Of a stretch of 64,000 bases of DNA, positions 3,001 through 64,000 are shown in pieces. This DNA is from Amyelois transitella (Eukaryota > Arthropoda > Insecta > Lepidoptera > Pyralidae). A model generated the notes under the pieces. That model saw only the letters and a program-made list of their open reading frames with translations, was not told the origin of the DNA and ran no database searches. The stretch lies in the NCBI RefSeq assembly GCF_032362555.1, contig NC_083510.1, forward strand, positions 6,847,501 to 6,911,500. Direction: 5' to 3'. The position numbers and the translations under genes were made by a program. The first letter of the stretch is position 1, and every line of letters begins with the position of its first letter.

Positions 3001-5062
3001 TTTTATTGACACTTTTACTCCTACCGCTTCTGAAAAAAACTGGCGAATCTCAAGAACCGAGTAGGATTGTAAATACGGCATCTGTTTTGCACAGCTTAGG
3101 AAGAATAAACTTCAAGAATTGGAATGAACCGAAAATGAATATTTTTTCTTATTCGAATAGTAAAATGTGTGTTGTTTTGTTTACACGTGAACTAGCAAAG
3201 CGATTAAAAAAGTCTAATGTTGTTGTGAGTGCCGTAGACCCTGGTGCTGTTGGTACAAAAATCTTCTTAACAGCTGTTGGGAGAGGATTCGGATCTTTTG
3301 TATCGTTCATATTCTTAGTACTATTCAAGCAACCTTGGGAAGGTGCGCAAACAGCGATATATGCTGCAGTAAGCAATAGTGCTGGTAAAGTCAGTGGTGA
3401 ATTTTTCAGAAATTGTAAAATCGCAAGACCCGCATCAAGATGTTACGATGACAAACTCGCTATGAAAGTGTGGGAGGAATCAATTAGGCTGGTGAAATTG
3501 AAGGACGAGGAATGCATTTAGTGATAAAACGATTGTTAAGTGAATTATGTTATACCTAATATTCGTAATAGGATGTTAAAGTATTATCCATATAGTTACT
3601 TCATGTGTACGAAACTAGGAATTTCTTGTGTGCGGAACTGCGGAGTGAATTCCCCGGTACGGCCAGTTAAACGTAGTTGTATCAAGGGTCGATAGCGGAT
3701 ATCAGTCATTTTCATTAATGTATGCAGGTTTAACTTTGAATTATTGGGTTTTCAGGTGGATATACTTAATTGTTACCTTATTCATGTAAATGCTTAAGCA
3801 TTGATTAAGCATCGTTTATTAACAAGACATAATTTCAGTATTTTTAAATGTGACCAATATTGTAGAGATGAAATGTCCTTTTTTATACCATAGGTACATT
3901 CGTTTTTATTTTATGGTTGTCCTTGTACCATTATTTCATATCAATTTATCGGCTACCGAACACAAAAATCTAAATACTTACATTATATATTAAAGATGTT
4001 CGTTAAAGCAACATAATGTGAAAATGTAAATTAAATATTGTTATTTAACTAAATAAAATATTGTTACTTTACAATAACATAAAAAATCAAGGTAAATGAA
4101 TTTAAATTTATACGAATTATAGACTTAGAACAAGGACTGAAAGCCAAAGGACTATTCTTAAAACAATATCTTAAAATGTTTTGTAAAAAAAATTTAAGCG
4201 TACAGATTAGGTATTTATTTTTATATTTACTATTAAGATTTGAGGAATAGTAAATATTGATATTTTAAAAATGAATAGATACCTATTCAGAATATACTTC
4301 AGATATATATCCGATATATCTGATGTATGATCTGCATCTTCGACAAATACAATATTACAATAGCTAGACATAAAGCTTTTGTAACATAAATAATTAATGT
4401 TTCCGTTGTATTTATTGGTTTTGATATAAGTATTTATATAAATCTTAATAAGTGGTATCATGATTTCAATGGTTTAGTTAATATTTATTCAAAATAAAGA
4501 TTTGAAACATCACTATATTTTATTATATATATTATCATTAAGATATTTAAATATTTTAATAGAGACTAACTTAATGTTTTCCTGCTCATATGAATTCCTT
4601 CAAAAATGCCTTATTTCCTAGGTCATCTACAGTTCATATAGGTTTCTTTGACACAAAATAAACAAATGTTAAATGATATTAAGAGTTATCTCAACAATAG
4701 GTACCTAATTGCCGTTTAAGTACCTAATTAATATCACATTAATAACCTAAGAATGCTATTTTATTGGCTAATACCTACTAATCCTATCCTATTAATAATT
4801 ATAAATGCGAAAGTTTGTAAGGATAAAGTGATTCAATAACTACATTATTAAGCTAACCTTTTATAAATTTCAGCCGGCAAAAGTGGCCCAATCGCTGCTG
4901 CTCTTCTGCCAAGGCCAGGGTCAGCTGACGTCACTGCCCCCACCAGGCGTGGAAAGGCGCATGTCTCGTGCCATGTCCATGGAGGAGTACGACAAGCCCA
5001 ACATCAGACGGCTGTCCCTCACGCCCAGCGTGTCTGACTCCCCACCCCCCAGGAAATTGTAG
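96..5062 (+). CDS. MESK2: NDRG family protein (MESK2 orthologue), C-terminal two exons
   Basis: Two exons are visible: 96-258 (acceptor TTTAG before 96, donor GTAAGT at 259, phase 0) and 4874-5062 (acceptor TTTCAG, stop TAG 5060-5062). The gene starts upstream of the window. The first exon has the NDRG alpha/beta-hydrolase-fold stretch DILLITGMLSPYSSVVEKLY and ends KAGDVLAEA. The second runs PAKVAQSLLLFCQGQGQL and ends in the Ser/Arg-rich tail with MSMEEYDKPNIRRLSLTP, the hallmark of insect MESK2/NDRG. NDRG proteins are hydrolase-fold proteins without a working catalytic triad, linked to stress, differentiation and Ras/ERK signalling. The RRMS and RRLS sites in the tail look like basophilic-kinase targets (inference). 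The 4.6-kb intron contains a complete SDR gene on the same strand. Confidence 0.88.
259..2552. other. Intronic sequence of NDRG gene before the nested SDR
   Basis: AT-rich intron DNA. A degraded lepidopteran repeat with the phrase CTAATCTCCGGAACTACTAA lies near 1650-1780, and an imperfect tandem duplication spans about 1790-2010 (separate entry). About 2260-2440 is richer in G and C and precedes the nested SDR, so it may hold that gene's promoter or 5' UTR. I see no splice-flanked NDRG exon here. Confidence 0.5.
1790..2010. repeat. Imperfect tandem duplication, unit about 125 bp
   Basis: The block GGAAAAGACGTCTTAACAAA, then an AGTTG...AACCT...ATGAGCATTTTCT stretch, occurs near 1790-1850 and again near 1914-1965 with about ten differences, and both copies continue into a GAAGATC..GA segment. 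A short plus-strand frame runs through it, but nothing suggests a real protein. It may be a fragment of a larger repeat or an old local duplication. Confidence 0.6.
2553..3521 (+). CDS. Retinol dehydrogenase-like short-chain dehydrogenase (SDR1), nested and intronless
   Basis: This intact 322-residue reading frame starts at ATG 2553. The frame is open further upstream without an ATG, and the paralogue at 38135 starts at the matching place. Residues 2-22 form a hydrophobic N-terminal segment, likely a membrane anchor, as in RDH11/RDH14-type enzymes. Classical SDR features are TGGTSGMG (about 43-50, Rossmann turn), NNAG (122-125), Asn145 in MQVNYFG, Ser177 in NTASVLH, and the YSNSK catalytic pair (Tyr200, Lys204). 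Such enzymes oxidise or reduce retinoids, steroids or other lipid alcohols and aldehydes with NAD(P)H; the substrate cannot be read from sequence. The usual ACR of this family reads ACP here. The gene sits in the last NDRG intron on the same strand, has no introns, and matches SDR2 closely over its whole length. Confidence 0.9.
   Translation: MSVILLIAEIIFIGGLIVGLYQKNTNLICKSKKRLDGKTVIVTGGTSGMGLEIAIDFAHRGAKVIVACPFEDEGYNGKKKIIESSGNENVIFKFLDLSSLESVRKFAADILQTEDRLDILVNNAGLGTGGRRTTADGMNFIMQVNYFGSFLLTLLLLPLLKKTGESQEPSRIVNTASVLHSLGRINFKNWNEPKMNIFSYSNSKMCVVLFTRELAKRLKKSNVVVSAVDPGAVGTKIFLTAVGRGFGSFVSFIFLVLFKQPWEGAQTAIYAAVSNSAGKVSGEFFRNCKIARPASRCYDDKLAMKVWEESIRLVKLKDEECI
3522..4873. other. SDR1 3' flank and remainder of NDRG intron
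   Basis: AT-rich DNA after the SDR1 stop. AATAAA hexamers at 4052-4057 and 4493-4498 are candidate poly(A) signals for SDR1; neither can be confirmed. Tract-rich sequence then leads to the NDRG acceptor at 4872-4873. No other coding exon is evident. Confidence 0.45.
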
Positions 5063-8394: not shown

Positions 8395-13311
<4,917 letters not shown>

Positions 13312-24812: not shown

Positions 24813-26051
24813 TTAAATTTGAGCATTTACAACGCTAGGTACTCTATTGTAAAAGTTTCTATAACACCTTTGATCATTATAATAAGAATTATTCTGATAA
24901 AAGTTATCACAACTATAGTAATGCCTTTCATTATAATGAAAATTATTTGAATAACTGTCATAATTATTTGTATACTCGTCAGTCTTAGAAGTTCTTCTAT
25001 TCTTTGCATTTTCAAATGCGTTTTTAAATATTTCATAATTTTTTTGATTAAAATATTCTTCTGAATTGTTCTGATTTATTGGGTACATATCGCTGTAGTT
25101 TCCTTCTATTGGAAGAGGTCTTGGATTATAGGGATTTTGCTGAATGAATTCTTCTCCAAAACTAGATGTATTTGTGAAAAATCCAGTTCCAGTTGTCGAA
25201 GTAATGCAATTACCACCTTTATTATTGACTGAAACGGTCACATTTCCAACGTTGATTAATACTCCCTCTGAGGTCTGCATAAAATTAGATCCATTAGGGA
25301 AAGGTCTACTGAATCCTTGAAAATTTCGGTAGCTTCCATCACTGTTATATTCTTCAGTTTTATTTGGAACTAAAAACATATCCCTGAAGGCATCCTTTGT
25401 TATTTTTTCTCCTGCTATAGAATAATTCTGAATTTTCTCATAATTTAAAGATGGCGTTGAACCAGAATTAATGTTATCTAATGACTCTAAAGTTTGGCTC
25501 AGAGCAAAAATATAATTGTGGGCGAATCTTAACGTCTCAATTTTAGTTAATTTTGTATCTTCCGGAAAAGTGGGCAAAACACATCTCAATCTGTCTAGAG
25601 CCTCATTCAACATGTGCATCCTATTCCTCTCTCTATCGTTAGCTTTCATTCTTCTATTTCTTTTAATCCTCAAAATCTGTGTCGGACTTTTGCACCTTGT
25701 CACTCTGTTCTTACCATTAGCATATTTTCTTTTTGGTTTATTTGGATCTTTGGCTTCTTTTTTCTTGGGCTTAATAGGAGTTGAAGTATTGTCAGTTGCT
25801 TGAAAGTTATCCTTAAATGTTTTAATATCCAATGGATCTTCAAATGGAAATTCATAGTCATCAGAAAATAATTTCCTTCTTACTTGCGACTTGGTACGTA
25901 CGAAATGCGTGCCAATATCTTGTTTCACTGGAGTACTGTTCACCGAAGTTGGTGTAGCGAGGGAGTCTGTGAAGGACTTTTCAATGCCGGAATCATTGCT
26001 GCAGATGCTGTCATTGAAGTCACAGTAGTCTTCAAAACTAGTATTAAACAT
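24813..26051 (-). CDS. tap: Neurogenin-type bHLH transcription factor (tap orthologue)
   Basis: A single coding exon encodes 412 residues. The start ATG (26049-26051) lies ten bases inside an exon whose acceptor reads TTTTCAG at 26061-26062, so the leader is split by an intron. The bHLH domain occupies about residues 133-187: basic region [14 protein letters not shown], helix 1 [13 protein letters not shown], loop PEDTKLTK, helix 2 [18 protein letters not shown]. This matches the neurogenin/Tap subgroup of the Atonal superfamily, which binds E-boxes as a dimer with Daughterless and drives neuronal differentiation. A lysine-rich stretch ([17 protein letters not shown], about 95-110) before the domain may be a nuclear-localisation signal. 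The C-terminal half is low in complexity and rich in Asn, Tyr and Ser. Large repeat-bearing gene-poor flanks with GC-rich blocks fit a developmental regulator. Confidence 0.88.
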
Positions 26052-26276
26052 TTTCTTTACCTGAAAAGATACATAATTTTTTATCAATTTTTTTATATTT
26101 ATTTTTGTTCTGAAATTCTATCTATAAGAGACATCTCTTATCAAAAAAATATTAGCACCAAGAATTTATTTATGATTTAGATGCTATTTGAAATAACAAT
26201 TGTCTTCATTACATACTCGTATATATTTAAATTATAACTAAGTTTGAGTAGCATTAAAAAAACTAAATAGTTATAC

Positions 26277-37385: not shown

Positions 37386-38134
37386 TATATTTTACTAATT
37401 ACATTCTTAAAATTAGGAACTCAGCGTGTCTCAGTGGCCTTTTACAGGTAATTTTAACTAACTCTTTATAAAATGTACCTTGTTACCACAGATTTCTGTA
37501 TTCTGTGCTTCTTAACAAAAAATATCTAGGTATATCTATCGACAATATTGCGTAGGTAAATAGTTATACCTAGTTTTCCTTTAAAAAAATGTCACACGTG
37601 ATTTTCATTTACGTAAGTAAATATCGTGTTACACATTGGTTGCGATGTGGCAAAGGAAAACGTGCTCATCTTATGGAGGATGGATATGTTCTCATCTTAC
37701 AAAAAATCAAATAACACGCCCCTTATAATGTATTAAATGCCAATCAAATAAAACACTATAGAAAAACAAGGACATGGGTTTTTAACCGAATTGCGCGAAA
37801 TAATCTCTACGCCTTTATTTTGCGAAGGTACGTAAGTAAGGTTTAAGGGTTTTCCTAAATGTTTTCTCATTATCATTTTTGTTTGTATAGTAATTTTTGT
37901 TATAAAAAAGTAGGTACACTGGGGAAATTGTTATTTTTAAGTGAGGTGTAGGTATATGTTCTGTATGTCATATTTTTTTGTTAATACAATGAATGACATA
38001 ACTAAAATTTTTTACCATGTTTGTTTTAAACGACTTAATGCAAACGATGTACGCCAGTAGCATTGTGTAAGAAATATAAAAACGCACCATTATAAGCAAT
38101 AATTCATTTTTTTGTGGTCCGCTGACAAACGAAG

Positions 38135-39115
38135 ATGTTGTATATAGTAACAATTTTGACAGTGTTAATAGTTTTAGCACGCAACAAAAGAAGACAGCAG
38201 AGAATATGTGACTCAAAAAGACGGCTCAACGGAAAGACTGCATTGGTGACCGGAGGAACAGCTGGCATGGGCCTGGAAATAGCTACAGACTTGGCTGCTA
38301 GAGGCGCCAGGGTGATCGTCGCATGCCCGTTCCTGGAAGAGGGGAATCAAGCTGAGAAAACCATCATCTCTACCACTGGGAACGAAAATGTCAAATTCAT
38401 ACTCCTAGATCTCTCCTCCTTTAAATCCGTTAGGCAATTTGCAGCAATTATCAAGTCTGAAAGCAGATTGGATATTTTAGTGAATAACGCAGGCATAGGA
38501 AACTCTACCGAGGCATTGACTGCTGACGGAATGAATTTCATTATGCAGGTGAATTATTACGGCCATTTTTTGCTCACTATCCTTCTCCTTCCACTAATGA
38601 AAAAATCCGGGAGTCCTGCAGACCCAGCGCGAATAATTAACACGACATCAATGCTGCACCATTTTGGGGTCTACAACCTGACAAAAGAACAAACTGGAAA
38701 ACATAATTTTCTTCGAAGAAACCGTTTCTATGCCACAAGTAAATTATGCACGGCACTATTTTCCCGTGAGTTAACCAGGACTCTAGACTCTACTAAAGTT
38801 GTTGCCAACACCGTGGACCCTGGAATAGTCGGAACAGGAATCTTCTATAGTTTAGGCGGTGTAGCAGGTTTCCTGGCTAAAGTTTTATTTTTAAGCTTAT
38901 TCAGTTCTCCATGGGAAGGCGCACAAACTGCCATTCACTTGGCGGTCGATGAAGAGGCAGGTAAAGTTAGTGGAAAACTATTTAGAAACTGTGAAATAGC
39001 TGGAAATTCTTCTGCTATCTCAAGCAACCAAACAGCAAAACAATTATGGGATGATTCGGTAAAAATGGTAAAGTTATCAGACACAGAAATGATCGAATGG
39101 CTCGCGGTTGCGTAG
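38135..39115 (+). CDS. Retinol dehydrogenase-like short-chain dehydrogenase (SDR2), intronless
   Basis: An intact 326-residue frame starts at ATG 38135. The hydrophobic N-terminus MLYIVTILTVLIVLA (1-15), followed by basic residues NKRRQQR, looks like an N-terminal membrane anchor. SDR marks are TGGTAGMG (39-46), NNAG (117-120), Asn140 in MQVNYYG, Ser172 in NTTSMLH, and Tyr199/Lys203 in YATSK. It is clearly a paralogue of the gene at 2553-3521: both share TADGMNFIMQVNY, PWEGAQTAI, AGKVSG and FRNC, both have no introns, and both read ACPF where family members usually have ACR. It has about 14 extra residues before the catalytic Tyr relative to that copy. The substrate is unknown; retinoid, sterol or other lipid carbonyls are possible. 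Confidence 0.9.
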   Translation: MLYIVTILTVLIVLARNKRRQQRICDSKRRLNGKTALVTGGTAGMGLEIATDLAARGARVIVACPFLEEGNQAEKTIISTTGNENVKFILLDLSSFKSVRQFAAIIKSESRLDILVNNAGIGNSTEALTADGMNFIMQVNYYGHFLLTILLLPLMKKSGSPADPARIINTTSMLHHFGVYNLTKEQTGKHNFLRRNRFYATSKLCTALFSRELTRTLDSTKVVANTVDPGIVGTGIFYSLGGVAGFLAKVLFLSLFSSPWEGAQTAIHLAVDEEAGKVSGKLFRNCEIAGNSSAISSNQTAKQLWDDSVKMVKLSDTEMIEWLAVA

Positions 39116-42334: not shown

Positions 42335-45087
42335 TCATACTCTGGACGTAGGTATATGCGGCACCCCTCCGTCACAGTACAGCTTGTTCCAGAATTTGAC
42401 GCGCTCCAGTTCAGGGCACTGGCCGAATGACAGCGGCTCCTCTAGGTTCATAAACTCCCTGCCTGAACTCGTTGGAGGCCATGTGACGCCCAAACTCTTG
42501 TCTGGTGTAGGATTGCTGTAATTATTAAAAAAAAATTATATCTCTCTTGAGGTAAGTCCTGGTTGTGTTTTCTCCCTGAGAAGGATCCCTGGTCCGCCTA
42601 TGATCACAATGTCTCGACATCACGCATTAATTTAAATGTATTTTTGTTTGTAGCAAATAAAGTAAAAACCTGGACAGATTTGATGAAAAATAAAACAATA
42701 ACTTCAAAAGCTGTAAAAATTGCTTTTTTCTGAAAATTTTCCGGAAAGCGAAACTCTGAACAAAAGTTTAGTCTAAAATAACAAACATACCTAAACTTCG
42801 CAAAGTTTGTCCACATTTTCGTTAGATTGAACACAATCTCTTTAATTTTATCTTTTTCTCGATAGACATCCTTATTTCCTTCATTATGGAAGAAGTAAAA
42901 CAAATCATCGGCGTGACAGGCCCCTTTAAGGGAAATACCACTCAATTTCTTTATAATATTCAAATCCGTTTCATAGTTAAACCGATAAGCGAATACCGGC
43001 TGATTTGAGAGACGATAAAAATGCACAAATCTATGGATATTATAAGTAAAATACACATCTGTCTGAAATTTAACGATAGCTTCTGCTGTATGTTCTCCAA
43101 AATTTTTATCACCGACATAAAAGTTTTTTATTCTGTCTCCAAATTCTATCATTTGATCTTCTTCCATCTTTGATGCAATTTCTCTCGGCACTAAATATTT
43201 AACATGTTTATTATAAAATTCAGCTTTCTTAAGTTGTAATGATAAAGTGAATAATCCTTCACCAGAATTGTAACCAATAATTAAAGGCACTTTGTTGTAA
43301 TTGCCCGAAAGCAGTATATCCAGCGGTTCTTCATTTAAAAATGACTCTACTCCATCAAATTTTTGTTCCACAACAGGTGCAAACAGTATAGACAAACCCC
43401 TATACTTCTCATCCTCAAGTCGGGTTTTTAAAGTAAGGCCAATAAAATCATTACTTGGTAAACCTCTAAAGTACTGTAACAATTCATTCACATCTTCAGT
43501 CTCTTTACCCAAAAATTTTCCACATCTAATTGCTCTTGCTATGCTATCTCTCTGTATGCTCCAATCATCTATGCAAGTTCCGCTCTGAGCGATTACTTTG
43601 TGAAACAACCCTTTGGACATGGGAGAAATCATATGGTATGCAACAGACGCCGCGCCGGCACTCTCGCCAAATAATGTCACATTATCCGGATCACCTCCAA
43701 ATTGTTCAATATTTCTTTTTACCCATTTCAAAGCAGAAACTTGATCTTTAAGGCCGGCATTTCCTGGTACATCTCGTGTATTTAAACACAAGAAACCAAA
43801 TACTTCTAATCTACTATTAATAGTTACTAATATAACATCATGTTGCAACAGAAAATCTGGTCCATACATGGAAGAGTCTCCAGAACCTGACAAAAATGCT
43901 CCACCATGAATGAAAACCATCACAGGCAGTTTAGATTTTGGTTGTAAGGATTTTGTATAGATGTTTAAAAATAAACAATTTTCGTCTTTTTCTTCATTTG
44001 ATAGCATAGGCGTAGGCACTTGAGGACATGATGGTCCATGTTTTGTTGCCTCATAAATGCCTTGCCATTGAAGTGGAGGCTCTGGTGCCTAGAACAATAT
44101 GGTTATACATTGAGACTGTAAAAATACCTTTGAAGCAAGGAATTATTATTGTTATGAACGTGCAAAATTAAGAAAATCTGGTATAAATGTGTATAACCTG
44201 ATAATGTCTTTGCCTTTTCATAATAACAAATTTCTACCTTAAATCTCAGTGGTCCAGTAGGAGGCTGGGCATATGGTACTCCTTTGAAGCTATAGCAAGT
44301 TGATCCATCTACAAGACTTAGAATTGATCCTTTAAGCTTGCCTTGCTGTACTGTTACAATGGGGTCATTCTGAAAATATTGTGTGAATTGTGTAATAGGT
44401 TTGACACAAAACACAAATGTTTGAGAGTAGCTATAGTGAACATAAACTTAACAGTGTGAGTTGTGTTAGTCGTGAATTTCTTTAGTGAGAAATCTCCAAG
44501 ACATTAATTTGCTTTAAAGTAAGAATACAAAAAGTGTGGTCCAATTTTATTTATTTATTTACTGCTACCTTAATGTAAAATACAGATGTTTGTGTGATAA
44601 TATCGAACCATTAAGGGCCCTGGCGGGCACTGCAATGAAAGGAGGGCCATTTTTTAATATTACAGAATAAATAGATAAAAAATTACTCTTATAAGCATGT
44701 TTTTTATATTAATATTTTATTAAATAGATACTTATTATGTATAGAATTGGACTTTTGAATTGTAATTGAGTAGGTATTTATCATGCATGTATAGTATTTA
44801 TTTATTGTAGTATGTATTTATTATTTATTCCTTATTAGGTGTATTTAACTTATAATTAATAACAATAACAATAATTTGATATTGAAGTTAGTATTATTAA
44901 ATCACTTATAATAATACTTCTGGATTTTAAGAAAAAATTAATTGTAATTTACTTATAATGTTTCTTCTGTGAAGACTTAAATGAATTCACTAAATACATC
45001 TCTTTTTTTTTTCAAAATATATATATATATATAATGAGAATTTTATAAAATTTATATAAGATTACAATTATTTATATTACTTACCAT
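42335..45087 (-). CDS. Cytosolic-type carboxylesterase (alpha-esterase group), four exons
   Basis: Minus-strand exons: 45085-45087 (ATG, then GTAAGT), 44238-44369, 42791-44088 and 42335-42515 (stop TGA 42335-42337), all in frame, 537 residues. The protein starts MNDPIVTVQQGKLKG with no signal peptide, so it is probably intracellular. Type-B carboxylesterase marks: SFKGVPYAQPPTGPLRF, EDENCLFLNIY-like KDENCLFLNIY, oxyanion loop HGGAF (about 107-111), nucleophile Ser188 in GESAGA, acidic Glu322 in NSGEG and His437 in GACHADD. The triad is complete, so an active esterase is expected, perhaps in xenobiotic or dietary ester hydrolysis. NSRLEVFGF replaces the usual NYRLGxxGF. The first exon is uncertain: a second ATG-plus-GTAAGT (45627-45629) would give the same N-terminus. 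Confidence 0.87.
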
Positions 45088-50545: not shown

Positions 50546-50821
50546 GCAGCAGCTGACCAAGCGTTTGCATCTATTTCTGCCGAAGAGTGGAGAAATTCTT
50601 GCAGCCATATCATGAAAATAGAAAAAGAATATTATAAACGAGGGCAGACGCTATACAAACACATAGACAGACTTGTAATAAACCTGCAAGATGACAGTAG
50701 TAGTATGAGCGATTCCTCTAACCTAGACGAGGATAAGAATTTTAAAGAAGGTACGAGCCAAGATACAGAACATTTATCTGATGTTGAAGTTTTGGAAGAA
50801 AGTCTTCTGACGTCAGACTGA
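50546..50821 (+). pseudogene. C-terminal remnant of a Tc1/IS630-type (DDE_3) transposase
   Basis: After a TTTTCTAG acceptor-like site an open frame reads AAADQAFASISAEEWRNSCS, continues HIMKIEKEYYKRGQTLYKH and ends in an acidic Ser-rich tail (NLQDDSSSMSDSS) before TGA 50819-50821. This matches the C-terminal end of lepidopteran DDE_3 transposases (an AFASISPEEWR-like helix, then a KIE..Y helix, then an acidic tail). The catalytic DDE region is absent. It lies between the two THAP elements and is probably a decayed or truncated copy. Confidence 0.55.
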
Positions 50822-51585: not shown

Positions 51586-54500
51586 ATGGACAGCAGGAAA
51601 GAGATGCTGAAAAAATCGCTTGGAATCAGCGAATATCCTTGGAGTTCAGGTAAGTACCTGCCTACATCACTGCGTGGTATATTATTTACATTTTTGGGTT
51701 CGATGTCGATCTAGTAACACCCCCTCTACTACGGATTAATATAAGTATAGATAATGTACAATTTAGCAATATTGCTCACGCCAATAAACCATGCAGAACA
51801 AAAACGATCGCCTTTTATTAATGCTAAAAAACACTACATAGAGCATTTTTAGAGCGTCGGTCGAATCGGTAAGGTTAAAATGCGTGATGCGCAGAAAGGC
51901 ATATGTTCTAATCCCACTTCAGCCATGTACCAATAACTATTTTTAAAGTTATTTACATTAATTTGTATATTTACTTCTGCTTTTACGATGAGAACATCAT
52001 GAGAAAACCTGCATATTCAGGATACTGGATGTGTAACCATGGATCCAATATGGATTGGGTTTACCTGCAAAGGTTGAGGAGATCAGATGGGAGTTGCTTT
52101 TTGTAAAAAACATGACTCACCGAATCCAGAATCCATGGTCAAAGGTATACTCATGCTCCCCTCTAGAGAGGTGAGGATGTAACCTGGACTAAAGCCAGGA
52201 AGAAGCAGACTACATTGAAAGATTTCACATTGGTATTTGTGTACTTCCTGACAGCTGCTGGTTTCATAATCCAATATTTAATTTAGTAGTAGTGTAGAGT
52301 ATAAATATCATTTTGAAGCAACCCAACAATGTAGATTTTGTAGAATTATTGCAAAAAAATGATTACTGGGTTTGCTCATGTGACATTAACCACCCCTAGG
52401 ATCAGTGATGTACAAAATAGTGTAAATAGTATTTGTAATACAAAATACTTTTAAATTAAGTATTTTATATACAAAATACTTTCGTGAAAGGTATTTCTAA
52501 TACTAGAAACAGAATAGTTTACCCTTAACCGGTATCGTGGGGCCGCGCAGACCCCACGCGTTATATTTTTTTGAATTTCTTAAAATCTATGCATAGTACA
52601 CGGTTGCCATTTTGAGTAATCTCATTACGTTGCGACACGCGGCGGGTGCCGGGCGTTCGCCGCTGAAGATTTTACCAGAGCGGAGCTACGAACCTTGCGG
52701 GGGCCGTGCGGACCCTACTATATATATAATTTTTTTCTAATACGTTGAAATACTTATGTTTGAGTTTATTTTTTCAAAGTTTATTTTATAAGAAATAAGA
52801 AAACATACAAATGTTAGGTAAAGACTTTTAAAAAAATAGTTTTTTTTTTATAGTGGTAAGAATACCAATAGGCTATTTGACAAAGTTCTAAAAACTATCT
52901 TAGGGTATTTATTTGTTTATAAGGAGTCCTACAAAAATACTTTTCTGCCTTTATTACAGCTATTATATTAAAAAATCGAAAAAGAAAATGAAATATTCAA
53001 GTATGCCGCCAAAACGCGACTTTTAGCAATATGGCGGCCATGGCATGCAGTGACGTTAATTTCGTGTAAATATCATACAAAGCTTGTTGGTGTTTCGAAA
53101 AGTTTTGATTTTCTCTTGTTTTATTTAACTTGTGCCACGTCATATGTGTGAAAATTATTAAAATGAGTTCCTATAAATGTTGTGCAGTGCCTCAGTGCAC
53201 TAATACAACAATAAAATCTCCTACGAAACTGTTTTTTTCTATGCCGATGGATTTGAATATTCGCAAGAAGTGGTTTCAGATCATGATCTAAGATCAGTGG
53301 TTACCAAGATATACTTACATTGATGTTTTCACATTCCTCAGTTCGGCAGCATAGAAATCTAGATTGTCTTTGAAGAAGACAATCCAGATTTCTTCTTCCA
53401 ACCATTATTGCGTCCACTTTTAGTATGTTTTGACTGTCAGCTTTCGCGGAATTGGTTTCCATTATTAAATACCTATGTTATCTGAGTAATCCTGAGCGAT
53501 CAAACACTTATAAAATCCTGAAAAATAATAGCGAACACTAAGGAACGGTACGATCCACAGTCTGTTTATGGATAATTGACGTCATAATAGAAATAGCCAA
53601 TTACGTTCGTTTTTAGTCACATGACAGCTGCATATAAAAACCTAATTTTCTGAGACGGATTTTGTTTAAATAATGCAATATTTTTATCTCATGTTATTAC
53701 AAATCGCTCCAAAAAAATAATATTAAGACTGATGACATAAAAGAAATGCATATTTTTAATACAGTCAAATAGCCTATTTTTATAGTGGCTTCAAGACAGC
53801 GCTGTTGACCAAAAGTGTTATGGGCATGGCACCGATTATTTTTAATAAATTACCTGACAATCTTAAACAATTAAATCTACTGACATTTAAAAAAGAACTT
53901 AAATTATTATTGGCAAATGAATGTTATTATGGTATTGATAATTATTTAAATGACACCAAATTATTTTGACTACTTTTGACCTAAATACTGTTATCATTAT
54001 TATTTTTTGATTTTTGTTTCTTTTTAGTTTTGCAAGTGCTTATTTTGATTTGTATTAATAATTAATTGATCTTTAATCATATTGTACGTCCAAGGAAATA
54101 TTGTACGTCCATATGGGCAGGACACAGTGATACCTATAATTTTATTGTTGACCTATTTTTTTTTTTTGTTTTTACCTGTGTTTCACAATAAAGATGATTT
54201 GATTGATTTGATTTGATTTGAATACCAAAGAAAGAAAAAGAAGAAGAAAATACCAAAAAATTGACCAAATTTTGTGAATCTCTTGTAGTAAAAAAGTTAA
54301 AAGAAGTATATGAATAAAAACCTATTAATTTCATTAAACAAGCTTGTTATTTATCCTATCAAAATAATTCTTGAAAAAACTTGTAGACATTTGTATCCTA
54401 GAATCTAATTTTAATAGGTTTAATTATTAAAATTAATAATTAAATTTACGATACCAGTTAGGGGTTAAAAAATACAAATACTTTTGTAAGAAAACAACAT

Positions 54501-57500
54501 TTGAATTTAAGATTCTTATGATAGCTCTCATAATTTTTAAATCACTAGAAAAATTTTAATCATACCCCCAAAAGAGAAGAGTCACTTAGAGAGTTTAAGT
54601 TCTCTAGGCTTATATCTTTATTATTAAGGTAATGCAGTGTTTCTAAGTCAAAAGAACTGGCAGTATACCCCATGTTATGGCCACTAGCATTCGAGGAATC
54701 TGAATCTTCTTTAAAATGTGTAATATGATTCATCCTTTGACTTTTCTTTGTATCATCACCTTCATTGTCCAAAGCCTCTTACTTTTCTTTTGCAAATCGA
54801 TTTATTTTTTGTGTCTATCTTTGCATTCTTTTGGTACCCACTTCATTTAAAAATCCAAGATTGAAGTAACATAACTCACTAGGATCATTCCTGCCTTAGA
54901 AAACATTAAATTGGTTTATGTTTCAGATGATGATGATGATAATGAAACTACAATACCTCTGAATTTAGTACAGAGGGGGATAAGTGATGTGCCGCGGCCA
55001 AGTTTGGGCGAAATTCCTGGAACAAGTAGTATGTTTTGATTTCAATCACACATTTTTTTATATCATATTTTTATACCACTGTAGGGTATAAAAATGTAGC
55101 TAACATCAATATAATAAGAATAATATATAAATAAGAAGTCACAAGACTTCTCCAGTCAGAAGACCATTTTTTAAATTGATAATAGACTCGATAATAGAAT
55201 TGAGATACAGATATAGTGATAGATTGCTAGCCCATCACATACAATGTTTACCCCATAGCTTTGGATGACTTACAGTCAGCATGGGAAACAAGCTTTATGG
55301 TAAAGGAAAATTTTGTTCATCTCGGACTTGTTTATACTTGACATAGACAAAAAACCTGACAACTGCGAGTCGGACTCGCTCACTAAGGATTCCCTACCGT
55401 TATCACGTTTGTCACTTATTTTTTATGTTAACATTTCTGTCTGTTTATTGTAAACAACCAAATATAACTTAAAATTTACGTTTGTTGTATGGGATTGAGT
55501 AAATAATTAACTAATTTATTGTTATTAAATTATTTATTTTGAAAGATATAAATGTATATTTAATGCTTCTACGTGTTACAGTTATTTATAGCAAATTATT
55601 GAGCAAAATAAAACGAAAATACCACGTTTATTGTATTATATTCTAGCTATCACGGGATACAGCCTAGTGACAGACAGTGGAGGCTTAGTAATAGGGTTTC
55701 GTTTTTACCTTTTAGGTACAAAAACCTAAAAATTATAAATCTCGTCTGATGCTTAGTCACTATCACAGCTTGTGGACACACACAAAAACATAGACCTATT
55801 TACACGCTTCTTGAAACTCAGTGTTACGTATACATCTATGATATCACATCTTTATTTCTTACATGGTAGACAAAGCCATTACTCTAAATAAGACTGAATA
55901 GTCATGATTGGCTGGGTAACTTAATGATAGAATTGAGATTCAGATAGTAACAGGTTGCTGGCCTCAAAGCAAAAAATCCCATATTTATAATGTTTCTCTT
56001 GATTATTAACCTTTACAATCTGCGCGGGAAGCCAAGCAGCTGGCGTACGTTCAGGTTTTTTTTTCGCTACTAGATGAGGTCATAAATTCGTTAGTTGTAA
56101 TTATTGACCAGACCTTGTATAATTTTAGGTCAACCACCACCAGCAACGTTCTCCCCCTCAGATTCCCCGGCCCGTAAAGCCCAGGCCAAAATGGACAGGG
56201 AGATGTTCTGGTCGCTCATAACCAACCACCGTGCTTTAACACGGTAATTGAATGATTGTTTTTTTTTTATTAATAAGTTAATTGTCATTCAAATCATAAA
56301 AACCGGCCACGTGCGAGGTGGACTCGCACACTCGCTCCGTCCATAAACGAAATCACTTAAATACTTATCATCCTTTGGAATCATGAGACCAATTGTTCTA
56401 TAATGTCATGTATTTCTCATAAATACTTGATCGATTTTATTCAATATCATTGGCAAAGATTAAGAAATGAAAACAGGCAATCAAATCTTCTCAAAAAAAA
56501 TTTATCCCTTATTTTGAAGGAGTGATACCCCTAGTAATTTACTTTTCAAAGTCCATACATTAATCATGCACAATTTGGTTACGGTTAAACTGAAAATAAC
56601 GTGTAAATACGTTTCTTCCTTAACGCTCAGATTAATTCGGATTATTCTGCTTCATTCGGAAAATTGGAGGCCTGGGATTAGACAAAAAGCTCTCTTACCT
56701 TGACAAGTCATCACTTTTTACTTCTATATCTTTCTATTTTTTCGGTAAACAACAGAGAAAGAGAGAGGGAAGACAAGTCATTCGCCATCGTAGGTGAGTA
56801 AACCCACTGAAAGGTTGCTCACCTCAGACATGTCAGTTCTAGGGTGAACAATGCCGGAATGCCCAATACGTTGAGCGGCTCGAGGCTCGCGGCCACAGCC
56901 CCGTCGTCGGTGGAGCGCCGCGAGCTGCGTCCGGACCGCACGTCCGCGGAAGTGCAGCGGAAGCTGGCACGGTTGAAGTCGCGGGACGAATTCGTACGGT
57001 TCACCAAGAGCCTTCAAGCCATGCGCAACAGCAGACACAACAATAACGTCTACCCCATATATGCAAGAAGTAAATCTCGTTCACTTTTCTATTATTACTA
57101 CGCTTTTATTAGCTTGGGTTGTATGTATGTATGTATGTAGGTATGTATGTATGTATGTATACATACATACATACATACATATGGTCACGTCTATATCCCT
57201 TGCGGGGTAGACAGAGCCAACAGTCTTGAAAAACTGAATGGCCACGTTCAGCTATTTGGCTTAACGATAGAATTTAGATTCAACTAGTGACAGGTTGCTA
57301 GCCCATCGCCTAAAAAGAATCCCAAGTTTGTAAGCCTATCCCTTAGTCGCCTTTTACGACATCCATGGGAAAGAGATGGAGTGGTCCTATTCTTTTTTGT
57401 ATTGGTGCCGGGAGTCACACGGCATGTATGTATGTAGGTATGTATGTATGTAGGTATGTATGTATGTATGTAACGGAATCTTTGAGCTTAATTTTCACTG

Positions 57501-60500
57501 GTTTCTGAACGTCTGATCAACTTGGAACTTTGCACACGTATTAAGGACCGATGACAATGCAATATTTTGATAAGAGTTTCTCATTATCCTTATTAAAACT
57601 GCCAGGATTAATAAATTCATTTTTAGATCCTTCGTAGGAGAGTAAGAGAGACAGAGCTAGCAATTTCCATACAAGAAACCGAGAAGTTCTGACGTATAAT
57701 GAGTCCAAAAAAAATGTAATATATTTCCATATAATGTTACTATTAACCTGAGGCTTTTTTATTTCATCGCATCGCTCCATTTAGAATTACCATTAGAAAC
57801 AATAGTAGAATTATGTAGTAGAATAATTTAAAACAATAAAAAATATAAAGTAATAAAACAAAAGTAATAAATGAAAATTGAACAACTAAATTTACAATAA
57901 TACAAGAATAAAGTTACTACCTACAGAACTTTGCGATATTTTAATACGTATTTAACATATTAATGCAATTCTTGAATTAACATTAGGTATCTTTTGTGTT
58001 CCACGATGTCTTCAGATAAACATTGTTGCGTTCCTGGTTGTAAAGGCAGTGGAGGTATGTTTGAAATATTTTTGTTCATGTATCAATCTGCCTCTTAATC
58101 TTGTGGTTTGATTCCTGGCAAGGCCACAATCGAAAATTATTATGTTTGCTGGATAGTCAAAAATATTATTAACAGTGATTTATCACTATAAAATTCTTTT
58201 CAACTGGGTTTAACAATCATCATACATACATACATACATATAATCACGTCTATATCCCTAGCGGGGTAGACAGAGCCAACAGTCTTGTAAAGACTGATAG
58301 GCCACCTTCAGCTATTTGGCTTTAAGATAGAATTGAGATTCAAATAGTGACAGGTTGCTAGCCCATCGCCTAAAAAAGAATCATGATGATGAGAATATTA
58401 TGAGATTTAATCCAATCAGGCCACATATAACTTTAAGAAAGTTAGTTGTGAAAACCGCCGGTGATGGGCGCATGGTTGCGAATGTCTTTTCTAGTAAGAT
58501 AGTTATACTAGAAGTGTTAACTTCCAAAAAATAATTGTATAAAAAAACTAAAAAACTACGCGTTTTATTGCTAATTGAACTAAAAAATAGAAAATAAATA
58601 ATAGTTTAAAAAAAACTAAAAAACCACGCTTTTATTGCTAATCAAACTAAAAAATAGAAAATAAAAATTAATGACAAAGGAATTCAGTAGTAGCAAGTCG
58701 AACAATCAGTTATAGTCAGTTGTAGTAGTAATTACCTCAGATTAAAATTATAACAAAATTAAATTTATTAACAAAACAATTTAAATCGGAGTAAAAAGCG
58801 TGGGGTGCATTTTACTTCATTTTCATAACTCTCTTGTCATAAATATATGCTAATAGAATAATTTTAATATTTAACTACATCAGGCACCCCACGCTTTTTA
58901 CTCAGATTTAAATTGTTTTGTTAATAAATTTAATTTTGTTATAATTTTAATCTGAGGTAATTACTACTACAACTGACTATAACTGATTGTTCGACTTGCT
59001 ACTACTGAATTCCTTTGTCATTAATTTTTATTTTCTATTTTTTAGTTTGATTAGCAATAAAAGCGTGGTTTTTTAGTTTTTTTTATTTTTAAGATTAATT
59101 TAAGATTATTTTTTTAAATGAAATATTTATTAAATTTATCGATTAATTCGAGAAAAGCGTGAATAATTTTGTATGGGTCTTCATTTTAATGTTGTGAGCG
59201 TCCATAAGCTGTATTATCTAACCATTAGGTTGAACCTGACGAAAGCACAATACTGAACGTGATACATAAAGATACTAAGCACATTATTTTTAACGGTACT
59301 AACGTAGTAGTGGTATAGAATACATACATGTTACAAAATATAAAGGGAGAGACATTTATTGCCTAGGAATAAAAAATTTAGACAGTCTTTGAATCTGAGT
59401 TATTCTAAGGCAGTCTTAAAAGGGTGCTAAAGAATTTAAAGTCACCTACCTATCTACAAATTAGCAATCGTAACATTTTTGAAAATGGTGATTATTGTAA
59501 ATAACAATTTGTTGTCTGGGCATATGCAGGCGCATCGGCACAATCAAGGAATCCCTTGTTCAGCCACTGCCTGAACCAAGACGTGCCACTTGTGAAGACT
59601 AACGTGAGGGCCCACATTCCGAAGAGGCTTTATGCCAGCCGCCCTGATTGCAACTCACGAAATCGTAAGTTTCCAGTAATTTATTTTAAAATAGAGGGCA
59701 AATGTTTAAACCCACTGGAAAGATAGTATAATCGTATATAAACCTTAAAAAGAGATTAGTTATGAATAAGTAAAGCTAGCTTTATCTAATTCCTAATCTG
59801 ACTTCAGTCAGTTACGAGAAGTACTCGTGATTCATTCAATTATTTGAATGTTAATTAGATTTTTTTAGGTTATATTAGGAAAAATATATTTTCACAAATC
59901 AGAACTTATATGTCCACTTTTTCTGATAAGTACTAGATTAAGCCATATCTAAAGGTATTAACGGGCTAGTTTTTCGGCAATATTTGATGCAATTTTATAG
60001 CCGGCCGGGATGTCGACTTCAATCGCTCAACAAAGTGCAATAATAGCAGAGTAGCCCGGCGCTAATGCCAATTACATGAAGTTGCAAGCATTCAATGTCT
60101 AGCCGGCCAGATTGCAGATGATTTTCCGCGCTTTGATTTTACTAAAATACCTATTGCCGTATGTCGTCTTTGCCCTTACGTATAGAATCTCTTGTCTCCA
60201 ATATTAGCTGTAGACGCCCGTTTAAGGGTTGCAAATTTTCAACTTGCAAATCCCGTTTAATCTCCATGGGATTTCTCAAAATCCTATTAATTAATTATTA
60301 TTTTTTACTCGCAAATTGAATGTAACCAACATCGAAAAATGACCTAGTTTTATTTTAAACTATGGTTCTACTTTTACGCCATAGGCTAGCAACCTGTCAC
60401 TATTTGAATCTCAATTCTATCATTAAGCCAAACAGCTTAAAGTAGCCAATCAGTCTTTCAAAAACTATTGACTCTGTCTACCCCGCAAGGGAGATAGATG

Positions 60501-63500
60501 TGATTATATGTATGTATGTAAAATTTCATTGTTAGCGAATGTCTTATTACAGCCTACTTTCCTGGCAAATTTCATCTATTGATTCAGTAGTTTTCGAGAT
60601 TTTGTGATAGTTTGAGTCAGCATCATATCAAATTTCATATATATAAAAATTTATAGATGAGAATATATAGCCGTAATATTGCTCTGTGTACGGGCAAAAA
60701 TTTCTCAGCAATACAGTTGCAAGACTTTCCTAGACTACGCTTGGCAATGTGTTTCACAATACAATTGCAGCAATTGCCTATTCAGCTTTGCTGACCCGAG
60801 TTGATATGTCGGTTACTTTCGTTCGTCTATGGATCTTATTCCTGATTTGATCTCGCAGAGAAACAAGAGAAACCCTTAGCCTATTTAAGGGGCCCTCAGT
60901 TAGAGACCGCATGTCTCGGTACCGAAGGGCATCACTTAACATTGCAGGCCACTTAACATAAACTTTAACCGTGGCGACAAAACAAACTGTCATATTGCAG
61001 AGCAGCCGATGATCGCGGTGTGCGGCGGACACGGCATCAGCGGGCCGCCCCCCACTCTCAGCGTGCCGCACCAAGACCTGCCCGTCAACCCCGCCGCTAA
61101 CGAGAACACGGAGACATTCAACATTGATCTTTCTGACGATGGTAATACTTTTACTTTGATTCAAATCTCAAACTTAAGGCAGTTAACCCAGTGTTAATCC
61201 CATACAGAATTGTAGACATAAGAAATAGTCGCAAGACTGGGGACCACATTTAGCTGGTTGGCTTAATTATGGATTTGAGATTTAGATATAGGTAATTAGA
61301 CGTATAAGTGATTTTTTTTAATAAGTTTTAAACTAGTGAAATAGCTATCATTTGGTGTCAAATTAGTCGCTTATTTCAATAAGCCTGATAATGTTTATTT
61401 AGTTATAATACATATAATATTTACACAGAATTTGTTATACCACCGAAAAAAGGTATGCAGTCTGCGCCAACGACAGAGAGACGAGACGGCAATCCCTTCC
61501 AAGATATATCGGATGATATCATTGAAGGTTTGTTTTTCATTTATTTATTTTTTGGATTAAAAGGAAATCAACAAGACTCCACTAATAGAAATATTGAAGT
61601 AGATATCTATGTTCTATGGTTATAATTCAATAAGTGATGCAAAAAACAACGATTTCTAACCGTTGGTATTGTCCGCCAGAAATGTGTCAGGAGAGGCCGA
61701 GCGGCGCGCCGCCGGCCGTGCCGCCGCCGCCCGACGCCGTGGACGGCGCGGGCCAGCCCGCCAGCGAGGTCAGTTATGCATGCATATTATTATTTTACTT
61801 TGTATTTGGTCTGCATGAAGAAGAGGCTTTTGACTTGACCTTGACCAGCTTGTATGGAAATATTGCTGAATTTGAATTTGGATATTGCAAAAGTCAGGAT
61901 CGTGGTAAGTGGAAAGATTGATTTTCTTGTCTATCCCGCCAGGAAAGAGTCGTGATTATTTGTATGTATTAGATCCGCTTGCACGTTTATTACACTGCGT
62001 CACCACTTTACGTCGACCGGAAAAACTGTTAAACTTGTAAATTATCATCTTTATCTGAAAAAACTTCTGATTTAGGTCGACTCGAATTACTTTGAAACAG
62101 CTACAAAAGACATCCCGAATGTTTTCCCGGATTGGGCTAGCCTGAACGTCTGGAAATACATAATGTGTAATAAGAAGCAGGTAGGCATTTTAAGTCTTTT
62201 TTTTGTAACTTGCAATGTGTTAAATGTTATGACTGGCCGGTGTGTTGGATATATCGATGTATGTATTTATTTTAAAATGTAGTATTGTATATAACTTATC
62301 ATTTAACTCGAACTTTTTTTGGGACTAGCTCAGTCTGCTTTAGTGGCCCGAATTTATTTATGATCTATTCACTGAAATATAGGGTATTTATATTAGCTTA
62401 GAAATTAAATATATCAGCTAGTGGTTGCCCGATATTTGCCAGTTCAGTCGACAATACTACCGACTTTGAGTGAATGTTTAAGTCCTATACAATTGCTTTA
62501 ATTTACAAATTTTTAATAATTTGTCCTTAGGAAGCTCTCCAGGTGGGTTCAGCTGTGCCATCAACTTCACAACAAATCATACAAAGGAAGAAACGAGATG
62601 GTAATTGTATTGTACTGTTTTCATTTGAGGATTTTTTGTACGCCCTTACATGTTTACTAAATATATTTGAATAAATTTGTTTCAGAATCTGAGGACGGCA
62701 GTGAACTGCCAAGTGTTAAAGAGTTCAATCAAGTAAGTAAGATTTAAATACTTCTTGGTTTGGCAGTAGGTATAGGTTAAGTTAGGAATATCTTTTTGTC
62801 TGGGTATTAAACTAGCCCCAATTTGTTTAAATGTAAACGTTTATTTGAATTTATAAGAGCGTGTTCTCCTTACCTAAATGGGGGAAAAATAAGGAAAGCA
62901 AACCTGTGATTCGCCTCGTATGACCGGAAGATTGGGTTGCTGAAGGGATATATAATGTTACCGCATGACAGAGCCTGCTGCGGCTGCTGGAGTGCCCGGT
63001 GTGCCTGGAGTGGATGGAGCCGCCCATCGCGCAGTGCCGGCGCGGCCACCTGGTGTGCACGGGCTGCCGCGCGCGCCTGGCCGCCTGCCCCGTGTGCCGC
63101 ACCACCTTCTCGTCCGTGCGCAACCGCGCCATGGAGGGGGTACGTGTCTCTAGCTCCACCATAACGCGGCGCACCCGCGCTGCAGTACTTGAACAAAGGC
63201 GATCACTGTGATGCCGCTACGTCTGTTTTCATATTAACAGTTATCAATTTGAGGCGATTTACTTTGAACGGGACCATGGTTTGTTGATTTTGTATAACTT
63301 TTTAATTTAATATATGAAGGTATTCAACAAAATACAAATTAAATGCTGTGTACGCCTTTATCTAAATAAACAAAAGCGTACAATACTGAAAGTCTCATAA
63401 AATGGTCTCGATTTCCTCAGCTGATCCTTCTGATTTCCCTTCCGAGAGCCAATCAGTTGGCATGTCATGTAAACCCTCTAAATTGTTTGCAAGGTGTCGG

Positions 63501-63664
63501 AGTTGCTGCGCTACCCGTGCCGGCACGGCTGCGGGCGCGAGATGCGCCTGCGCAAGCGCGGGCCGCACGAGGCCAGCTGCCCGGCGCGCCGCTTCGCGTG
63601 CCCGGCCGCCGCCTGCCAGCACCGCGCGCCGCTGCTGCACACTGACCTCACCCACCACTTCCAG
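51586..63664 (+). CDS. SIAH-family RING E3 ubiquitin ligase with long N-terminal extension (3' end outside window)
   Basis: Thirteen in-phase exons: 51586-51649, 54927-55028, 56129-56243, 56843-57069, 59530-59664, 61001-61141, 61429-61527, 61680-61768, 62076-62180, 62531-62600, 62686-62732, 62972-63139, 63494-63664, giving 511 residues so far. Residues 399-454 are a SIAH-type C3HC4 RING: LLRLLECPVCLEWMEPPIAQ, then CRRGHLVCTGC and CPVC, with ligands C406, C409, C420, H424, C427, C430, C437 and C440. Residues 455-511 form the SIAH zinc-finger region (CRHGC, HEASC, FACPAAAC). The substrate-binding domain must lie beyond 64000. Drosophila sina and human SIAH have short N-termini; here about 398 mostly disordered residues precede the RING, with an acidic run DDDDD (22-26) and a SUMO-interaction-like IDLSDDE (256-262). 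The RING and zinc-finger exons are strikingly GC-rich. The exon chain is frame-consistent but unverified by transcript. Confidence 0.8.
51845..52215 (+). repeat. tRNA-derived SINE in intron 1 of the SIAH-like gene
   Basis: It starts with a tRNA-like head (AGAGCGTCGGTCGAATCGGT, later GTTCTAATCCCACTTC as B-box/T-arm) followed by ACGATGAGAACATCATGAGA, a body common in lepidopteran SINEs. The head has decayed too far to be a functional tRNA. Confidence 0.5.
52525..52725. repeat. GC-rich intronic repeat block
   Basis: ATCGTGGGGCCGCGCAGACC plus CCACGCG on the left and GCGGGGGCCGTGCGGACCCT on the right echo each other around ACGCGGCGGGTGCCGGGCG. It is probably an unidentified transposon fragment; no coding frame. 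Confidence 0.35.
52867..53778 (+). mobile_element. Non-autonomous THAP-encoding DNA transposon, copy 2
   Basis: A 912-bp copy of the element at 46015-46925 in opposite orientation, with the same 15-bp terminal repeats AATAGGCTATTTGAC, the same THAP frame (53163-53291) and the same internal hairpin with one mismatch. It lies in the first intron of the SIAH-like gene. TTTTATAGTGG occurs both just before the element (ending ten bases short of it) and directly after it. Confidence 0.65.
53163..53291 (+). pseudogene. THAP-domain fragment in transposon copy 2
   Basis: A 42-codon frame MSSYKCCAVPQC...FFSMPMDLNIRKKWFQIM ends at TAA. It has the first two zinc-binding Cys and the conserved Trp of a THAP finger but not the rest. 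It is almost identical to the frame in copy 1. Confidence 0.65.
53779..54220 (+). mobile_element. LINE 3' end with C-terminal reverse-transcriptase remnant
   Basis: The frame MAPIIFNKLPDNLKQLNLLT continues FKKELKLLLANECYYGIDNY and stops at TGA 53967-53969; this is the C-terminal end typical of jockey/CR1-type LINE polymerases. AATAAA at 54187-54192 and a (GATTT)n tail to 54220 complete the 3' end. It abuts the THAP element, and the pair is bracketed by GAATACC (52860-52866 and 54220-54226). Confidence 0.6.
55190..55985. repeat. Repeat cluster in intron 2 of the SIAH-like gene
   Basis: Fragments of the TATG-tailed family lie at about 55190-55262 and 55845-55985 (AGGTTGCTGGCC at the end of the latter). 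Between them, 55335-55735 is a reversed copy of the interspersed repeat ending GTCCGACTCGCA (seen here as TGCGAGTCGGACTCG). Confidence 0.5.
57120..57480 (-). repeat. SINE-like repeat flanked by (TATG)n microsatellites in intron 4
   Basis: A near full-length TATG-tailed copy (57161-57424, with CCCTTGCGGGGTAGACAGAG and GGTGCCGGGAGTCACACGG) sits between GTATGTATG arrays on both sides. The arrays probably grew from the element tail and target duplication. It lies 50 bp after an exon of the SIAH-like gene. Confidence 0.65.
58006..58054 (+). pseudogene. Start of a second THAP-type protein, single exon-like fragment
   Basis: ATG opens MSSDKHCCVPGCKGSG and is followed directly by a donor-like GGAG/GTATGT. 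CCVPGC is the first half of a THAP zinc finger. No following THAP exon is visible. It may be the first exon of a decayed P-like transposon or of a nested gene, and lies on the coding strand of the SIAH-like gene within intron 4. Confidence 0.45.
58221..58382 (-). repeat. SINE-like repeat copy, head-truncated (TATG-tailed family)
   Basis: ATACATACATACATATAATC leads into CCCTAGCGGGGTAGACAGAG and ends at GCCCATCGCCTAAAAAAGAA. The half containing CGCCTTTTACGAC is missing. Confidence 0.6.
58607..59085. repeat. Large inverted repeat: two 202-bp arms, 75-bp spacer
   Basis: Arms 58607-58808 and 58884-59085 are reverse complements with a single mismatch (58788 against 58904). They include ACCACGCTTTTATTGCTAAT and its complement at the outer ends and AGCGTGGGGTGC and its complement next to the spacer. 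The outer 60 bp of the left arm is also tandemly duplicated with changes at 58547-58603. It lies in intron 4 of the SIAH-like gene, so the pre-mRNA would fold into a long near-perfect duplex. A foldback-type transposon is the likely source. Confidence 0.9.
60000..60125. repeat. Small GC-richer repeat in intron 5
   Basis: AGCCGGCCGGGATGTCGACT at the left and TAGCCGGCCAGATTGCAG at the right frame a non-coding block, probably a MITE fragment. Direct ends rather than clear inverted ends are seen. Confidence 0.3.
60383..60517 (+). repeat. SINE-like repeat copy (TATG-tailed family)
   Basis: GCTAGCAACCTGTCACTATT, CTCTGTCTACCCCGCAAGGG and a GTATGTATGTA tail give a 5'-truncated copy on the plus strand, in intron 5 of the SIAH-like gene. 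A tiny tail fragment recurs at about 61925-61970. Confidence 0.6.
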
Positions 63665-63781
63665 GTGCCTGTACCTACGCTCGCAATCCTGCTGAAAAAT
63701 GCCAAAACAAATTCCTCCTTCCTTTCGAAACTCGACTTTAATATATTACAATAAAGCACAGAATCCTCAAATTTATATTAA

Positions 63782-64000
63782 TCTATAATAATATTATAAA
63801 GCTGTAGAGTTTGTTTGTTTTTTTGAACGCGCTAATCTCAGAAACTACTCGTTCGAATTGAAAAAGTATTTTTGTGTTAAGTAGACCATTTACCGAGGAA
63901 GGCTTTAGGCTGTATAATATCACTACGCAACTATAAGAAGCGAAGAAATAATGGAAAATGTGAAAAAAAAAACGTGGAAAATTATTCATCCTTAAGGGCT
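63782..64000 (+). mobile_element. Helitron-like element running off the window end
   Basis: TCTATAATAATATTATAAAG, a GTTTGTTTG stretch and CGCTAATCTCAGAAACTACT mark the 5' end of the family. The body (TTAAGTAGACCATTTACCGA and onward) continues to the window edge without the CTAG terminus. It lies in the intron after the last visible SIAH-like exon. Confidence 0.6.

Follow-up and report, generated by a model that had tools for sequence, protein, structure and literature searches.

The SINA/SIAH ubiquitin ligases are highly conserved, and those surveyed have short front ends. One survey gives 26–155 residues ahead of the RING finger for 20 invertebrate SINA proteins and about 80 for SIAH2 (PMC5547486), and two reports describe the cores of SIAH1, SIAH2 and Drosophila SINA as highly conserved (PMC5977115, PMC5547486). 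In the 64,000-nucleotide stretch of the Amyelois transitella genome analysed here (the window), a preliminary description had placed a ligase of this family behind an extension of roughly 400 residues containing a possible SUMO-interaction motif (SIM). This raises the questions of whether the locus is a single gene for such a protein, and whether its N-terminal arm reads SUMO. If a divergent paralogue in an insect carries some 400 residues ahead of its RING, large regulatory arms are within the reach of this family, and the gene offers a concrete case for asking what such arms do.

The eleven phase-consistent exons that had been proposed upstream of the RING were borne out. From the ATG at 51586, 13 exons on the + strand (51586–63664; Table 1) splice in phase into 516 stop-free codons that continue to 63664, with GT and AG at each junction and agreement of phase throughout. 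The long arm was likewise recovered, with its length revised from 398 residues to 403 ahead of the RING exon; exon 4 has several alternative in-frame acceptors, and the earlier figure would fit a later one that leaves five residues fewer. Because an in-frame stop lies four codons 5′ of the exon 1 ATG, this is the first in-frame ATG. Splice sites were scored with matrices and expressed as percentiles among the 658 GT and 652 AG sites of the region; the 13 donors range from the 90.6th to the 99.8th percentile and the 12 acceptors from the 75.2nd to the 96.9th.

Table 1. Exons of the predicted SIAH/Sina-type ligase gene, in window coordinates, with features of the encoded segments. Frame ranks are out of six; "best chain" is the highest-scoring exon chain in the real DNA.
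Exon	Position	Strand	Description
1	51586–51649	+	start codon; donor CAG/GTAAGT, 99.8th percentile
2	54927–55028	+	in-frame donor 3 bases earlier possible; frame rank 1 in both frame tests
3	56129–56243	+	exact in best chain; frame rank 1 (amino-acid score), 5 (codon usage)
4	56828–57069	+	frame rank 1 (amino-acid score), 4 (codon usage); one end common to best chain
5	59530–59664	+	predicted frame is the sole open one of six; absent from best chain
6	61001–61141	+	3′ end encodes ...FNIDLSDD; frame rank 1 in both frame tests
7	61429–61527	+	starts EF; second D[LI]SDD motif at its end (...FQDISDDIIE); exact in best chain
8	61680–61768	+	proline-rich; frame rank 1 in both frame tests
9	62076–62180	+	within the arm stretch richest in order-promoting residues; frame rank 1 in both frame tests
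10	62531–62600	+	basic RKKR (residues 383–386); exact in best chain
11	62686–62732	+	acidic; phase 0 junction to RING exon; exact in best chain
12	62972–63139	+	Sina-type RING finger, residues 411–445; PF21362; SIAH1 chain 9g0l
13	63494–63664	+	part of Sina-type zinc finger; PF21361 below cutoff

The chain was compared with what arises by chance. Each chain was scored from its ATG to a phase-0 donor by combining splice sites with an amino-acid score relative to regional base composition, and the null distribution was drawn from 1000 shuffles that kept dinucleotides inside 300-base blocks, the best chain being taken from each. The model chain, which was not optimised, scored 179.7 and was matched by the best chain in 2 of the 1000 shuffles (mean of the best chains 105.1, maximum 186.0). 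In the real DNA, the top-scoring chain reached 240.6, a value equalled in none of them. Against the 180 of the model, best chains scored 80–114 on both strands of two gene-poor stretches of the window of equal length, and 141 on the opposite strand of the gene region itself. This top-scoring real chain comprises 21 exons. Of the 11 exons ahead of the RING exon, it contains 5 exactly, shares one end with 5 others and lacks exon 5, and it includes extra exons foreign to the model.

Two tests of reading frame were applied to the individual exons. By a composition-corrected amino-acid score, the predicted frame was the best of six in 12 of the 13 exons, a result that is partly circular because stops are penalised, which favours exons picked as open. 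By codon usage, the predicted frame ranked first in 7 of the 13 exons; this second test also placed the frames of the RING and zinc-finger exons fourth of six, and it is therefore unreliable in GC-rich exons. GC content at third positions is 1.00 in the RING exon (62972–63139) and 0.98 in the zinc-finger exon (63494–63664), in a window of 34% GC. Exon 1 ranked second by amino-acid score and fourth by codon usage; together with exon 5, it is the least supported exon of the chain.

A Pfam scan of the predicted protein matched Sina_RING (PF21362) at 54.8 bits, over a cutoff of 29.3 (E = 1.1e-14), so that the RING E3 domain common to SIAH/Sina proteins and SUMO-targeted ubiquitin ligases is present. 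The following Sina_ZnF match (PF21361) scored 23.3 bits, below its cutoff of 32, and covers positions 2–53 of the 77 in the profile; the rest of the profile would be encoded on the next exon. When the RING and zinc finger were searched against the PDB, SIAH1 (9g0l) was the top match of five sequences (E = 3.5e-21), and the other four were BRCA1 or a BRCA1 fusion. Identity to human SIAH1 amounts to 39 of 87 aligned residues (45%), and within the RING core to 22 of 38 residues; in the alignment all seven cysteines and the one histidine of the RING are the same in both proteins. An AlphaFold model of exon 12 alone had a mean pLDDT of 55.6, too low for use, and a scan against NCBIfam returned no family. 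Searches of contig collections confirmed no relative among 3 pattern matches (viral collection, full-protein profile), 26 (viral collection, query from a two-row RING alignment) or 6 (genome collection, full-protein query), which is uninformative about moths because these collections hold viruses and prokaryotes. With its Sina-type RING and in-phase frame, the SIAH-type ligase with a long N-terminal extension put forward in the preliminary description is well supported by the sequence.

The spacing of the exons bears on whether they belong to one gene. From exon 6 to exon 13 the introns measure 85–354 bases, which leaves little room for a second gene, and it is therefore very probable that the FNIDLSDDEF stretch is part of the RING gene. 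The five introns from exon 1 to exon 6 are longer (3277, 1100, 584, 2460 and 1336 bases), and the membership of exons 1–5 consequently depends on phase and score alone. These introns of 584–3277 bases are compatible with a mixed locus, in which the RING would mainly occur in a shorter product that begins at an internal start or with a different first exon, exons 1–5 belonging in part to another transcript. Internal methionines at residues 301 and 359 could serve such a protein, as could an in-frame ATG that lies 15 codons 5′ of exon 8 when this exon is read without splicing, and a THAP-like mini-exon with good splice scores fits in phase between exons 4 and 5 (58016–58054). Against this arrangement, phases agree along the entire chain, and among the unspliced 5′ extensions of the 13 exons, that of exon 8 alone offers an in-frame ATG. 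The RING exon cannot start alone, because a stop lies one codon beyond its unspliced 5′ end and translation from its first ATG (M418) would begin within the RING. Taken together, a mixed locus appears unlikely, and we assign a probability of roughly 0.75 to the locus being a single gene for a divergent, N-terminally extended SIAH/Sina-type RING E3 ubiquitin ligase, as predicted from the DNA.

Several other elements were seen within the longer introns. The 39-nt cassette is part of a piece at 58004–58054, MSSDKHCCVPGCKGSGG, which we take to resemble the start of a THAP domain; a Pfam scan of this piece found no domain. Within intron 1, 53109–53288 gave a THAP match just under the Pfam cutoff (23.1 versus 23.9 bits). 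A 202-nt inverted repeat (58607–58808 and 58884–59085; 100% complementary, 75-nt spacer) also lies in the intron that separates exon 4 from exon 5; it is either a foldback-type element of recent origin or an artefact of the assembly.

At the other end of the gene, the window stops 336 bases past exon 13, and the SIAH substrate-binding domain would lie beyond position 64000. Reading through the exon 13 donor adds 29 residues before a stop at 63752–63754 that overlaps an AATAAA, as would be expected if the protein ended there as a RING and zinc finger with no substrate-binding domain. That outcome seems quite improbable given that the donor (CAG/GTGCCT) is at the 97th percentile and that SINA/SIAH proteins are reported with SBS and DIMER domains (PMC5547486). 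For the extended SIAH-type ligase, an exon past the window end would instead add a TRAF-like substrate-binding and dimer domain.

The arm itself consists of 403 serine- and proline-rich residues encoded by the first eleven exons, ahead of the RING exon, and its composition suggests that it is mostly disordered. Searched alone, it matched no family in Pfam (E up to 1) and no PDB entry (E up to 10). Its length is well outside the range of 26–155 residues, which comes from a survey of SINA orthologues that may not include divergent paralogues. A basic RKKR patch is located about 25 residues N-terminal of the RING. The SIAH degron pattern PxAxVxP has no match within the arm, and a role of the arm as a self-targeting substrate through this degron was rejected. 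The arm may tune location or partner choice via short motifs, for which two acidic D[LI]SDD stretches, the RKKR patch and a proline-rich stretch are candidates, while the RING would recruit a ubiquitin-charged E2.

One of these stretches had been singled out as a SUMO-interaction motif. The peptide FNIDLSDDEF is present, at residues 259–268 rather than 254–263, and is split by the exon 6/7 junction (FNIDLSDD/EF). Its assignment as a SIM was not confirmed. SIM cores are typically four residues of the form hXhh or hhXh (h = I, V or L), frequently with negatively charged flanks, and binding can become much weaker when one core position is changed (PMC8616421). No such core exists in FNIDLSDDEF, where I-D-L stands between N and S; the peptide has only I-x-L (N-I-D-L-S), and the second stretch, FQDISDDIIEE, only D-I-S, so that both are short of a SIM core. 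Five flanked SIM patterns matched nowhere in the 516 residues, which is not a strong result because, for two of the five, 38% and 59% of shuffles contain a match.

The arm does contain two bare hXhh tetrapeptides, both outside FNIDLSDDEF: LNLV at residue 33 and VPLV at residue 193, with an acidic residue (D192) directly before VPLV. They are weak SIM candidates because 79% of shuffles hold such a core. The two acidic stretches conform to D[LI][ST][DE][DE] at residues 262 and 292, near the ends of exons 6 and 7 (61001–61527). Among 20,000 shuffles, this pattern occurred at least once in 136 and twice in none, figures that overstate its weight because the pattern was defined with the sequence already in view. 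A CK2-type pattern fits the first copy and not the second. An origin of the pair by duplication of exons 6 and 7 was rejected, since the local alignment score at the DNA level was reached by 230 of 300 shuffles.

These observations can be set against a SUMO-targeted ubiquitin ligase, in which the D[LI]SDD motifs or VPLV would serve as SUMO-binding sites, delivering sumoylated proteins to the SIAH RING. In its favour, two acidic D[LI]SDD motifs lie N-terminal of the RING, as do the SIMs of SUMO-targeted ligases such as RNF4 according to one report (PMC8161396), and two bare hXhh tetrapeptides occur in the arm, VPLV with one D before it. The motifs themselves argue the other way, given that both acidic copies fall short of the hhXh/hXhh core, that the five flanked patterns find nothing in the protein, and that a bare core is common in shuffles; among the titles listed for SIAH or seven-in-absentia together with SUMO, none concerns a SIAH-based SUMO-targeted ligase. 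We therefore consider such delivery very unlikely. SUMO targeting in general is possible but unsupported, with only a slight chance of being correct, and it is just as doubtful that two non-canonical D[LI]SDD SUMO-binding motifs make this long-armed protein a SUMO-targeted SIAH ligase. If the arm did read SUMO, two degradation routes would be joined in one protein, an idea to which the present evidence lends no support.

The predicted protein can be compared with the closest known systems. Like SINA, SIAH1 and SIAH2, it has a Sina-type RING with the SIAH1 cysteines and histidine, followed by a candidate Sina-like zinc finger; unlike them, it has 403 residues before the RING exon, far more than the surveyed SINA proteins, and across 87 aligned positions its identity to human SIAH1 is 45%. 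The lepidopteran ScE3 Siah of Sitotroga cerealella, with a SIAH-kind RING, measures 305 amino acids (PMC11759277), so that the entire protein is shorter than the arm described here. The gene is probably a separate, divergent paralogue relative to ScE3 Siah. RNF4, RNF111 and Drosophila Degringolade resemble it in that a long region bearing short acidic motifs precedes the RING at the N-terminal side; they differ in that the RING here is Sina-type, a flanked consensus SIM was not found, and SUMO binding is putative. Drosophila CG34375 may be another SIAH-like protein with an extension; in a paper that names it, it occurs in gene lists only.

Additional features were noted in the window. A dispersed repeat, GGGGTAGACAGAGCCAACAGTCTTG, occurs in six copies (18721, 20956, 31048, 39719, 57204 and 58263) with up to 3 mismatches, where the mean expected by chance is 0.00. 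An open frame at 50546–50818 had no match in Pfam and presumably resembles the end of a pogo-like transposase. A single long open frame on the − strand (24816–26117) encodes a bHLH protein (Pfam HLH), which we take to resemble neurogenin/tap. Five more features matched by Pfam (2469–3518, 38126–39112, 42607–44088 on the − strand, 12480–12728 on the − strand, and 1–282) comprise two short-chain dehydrogenases, a carboxylesterase, a tubulin exon and part of an Ndr-family protein.
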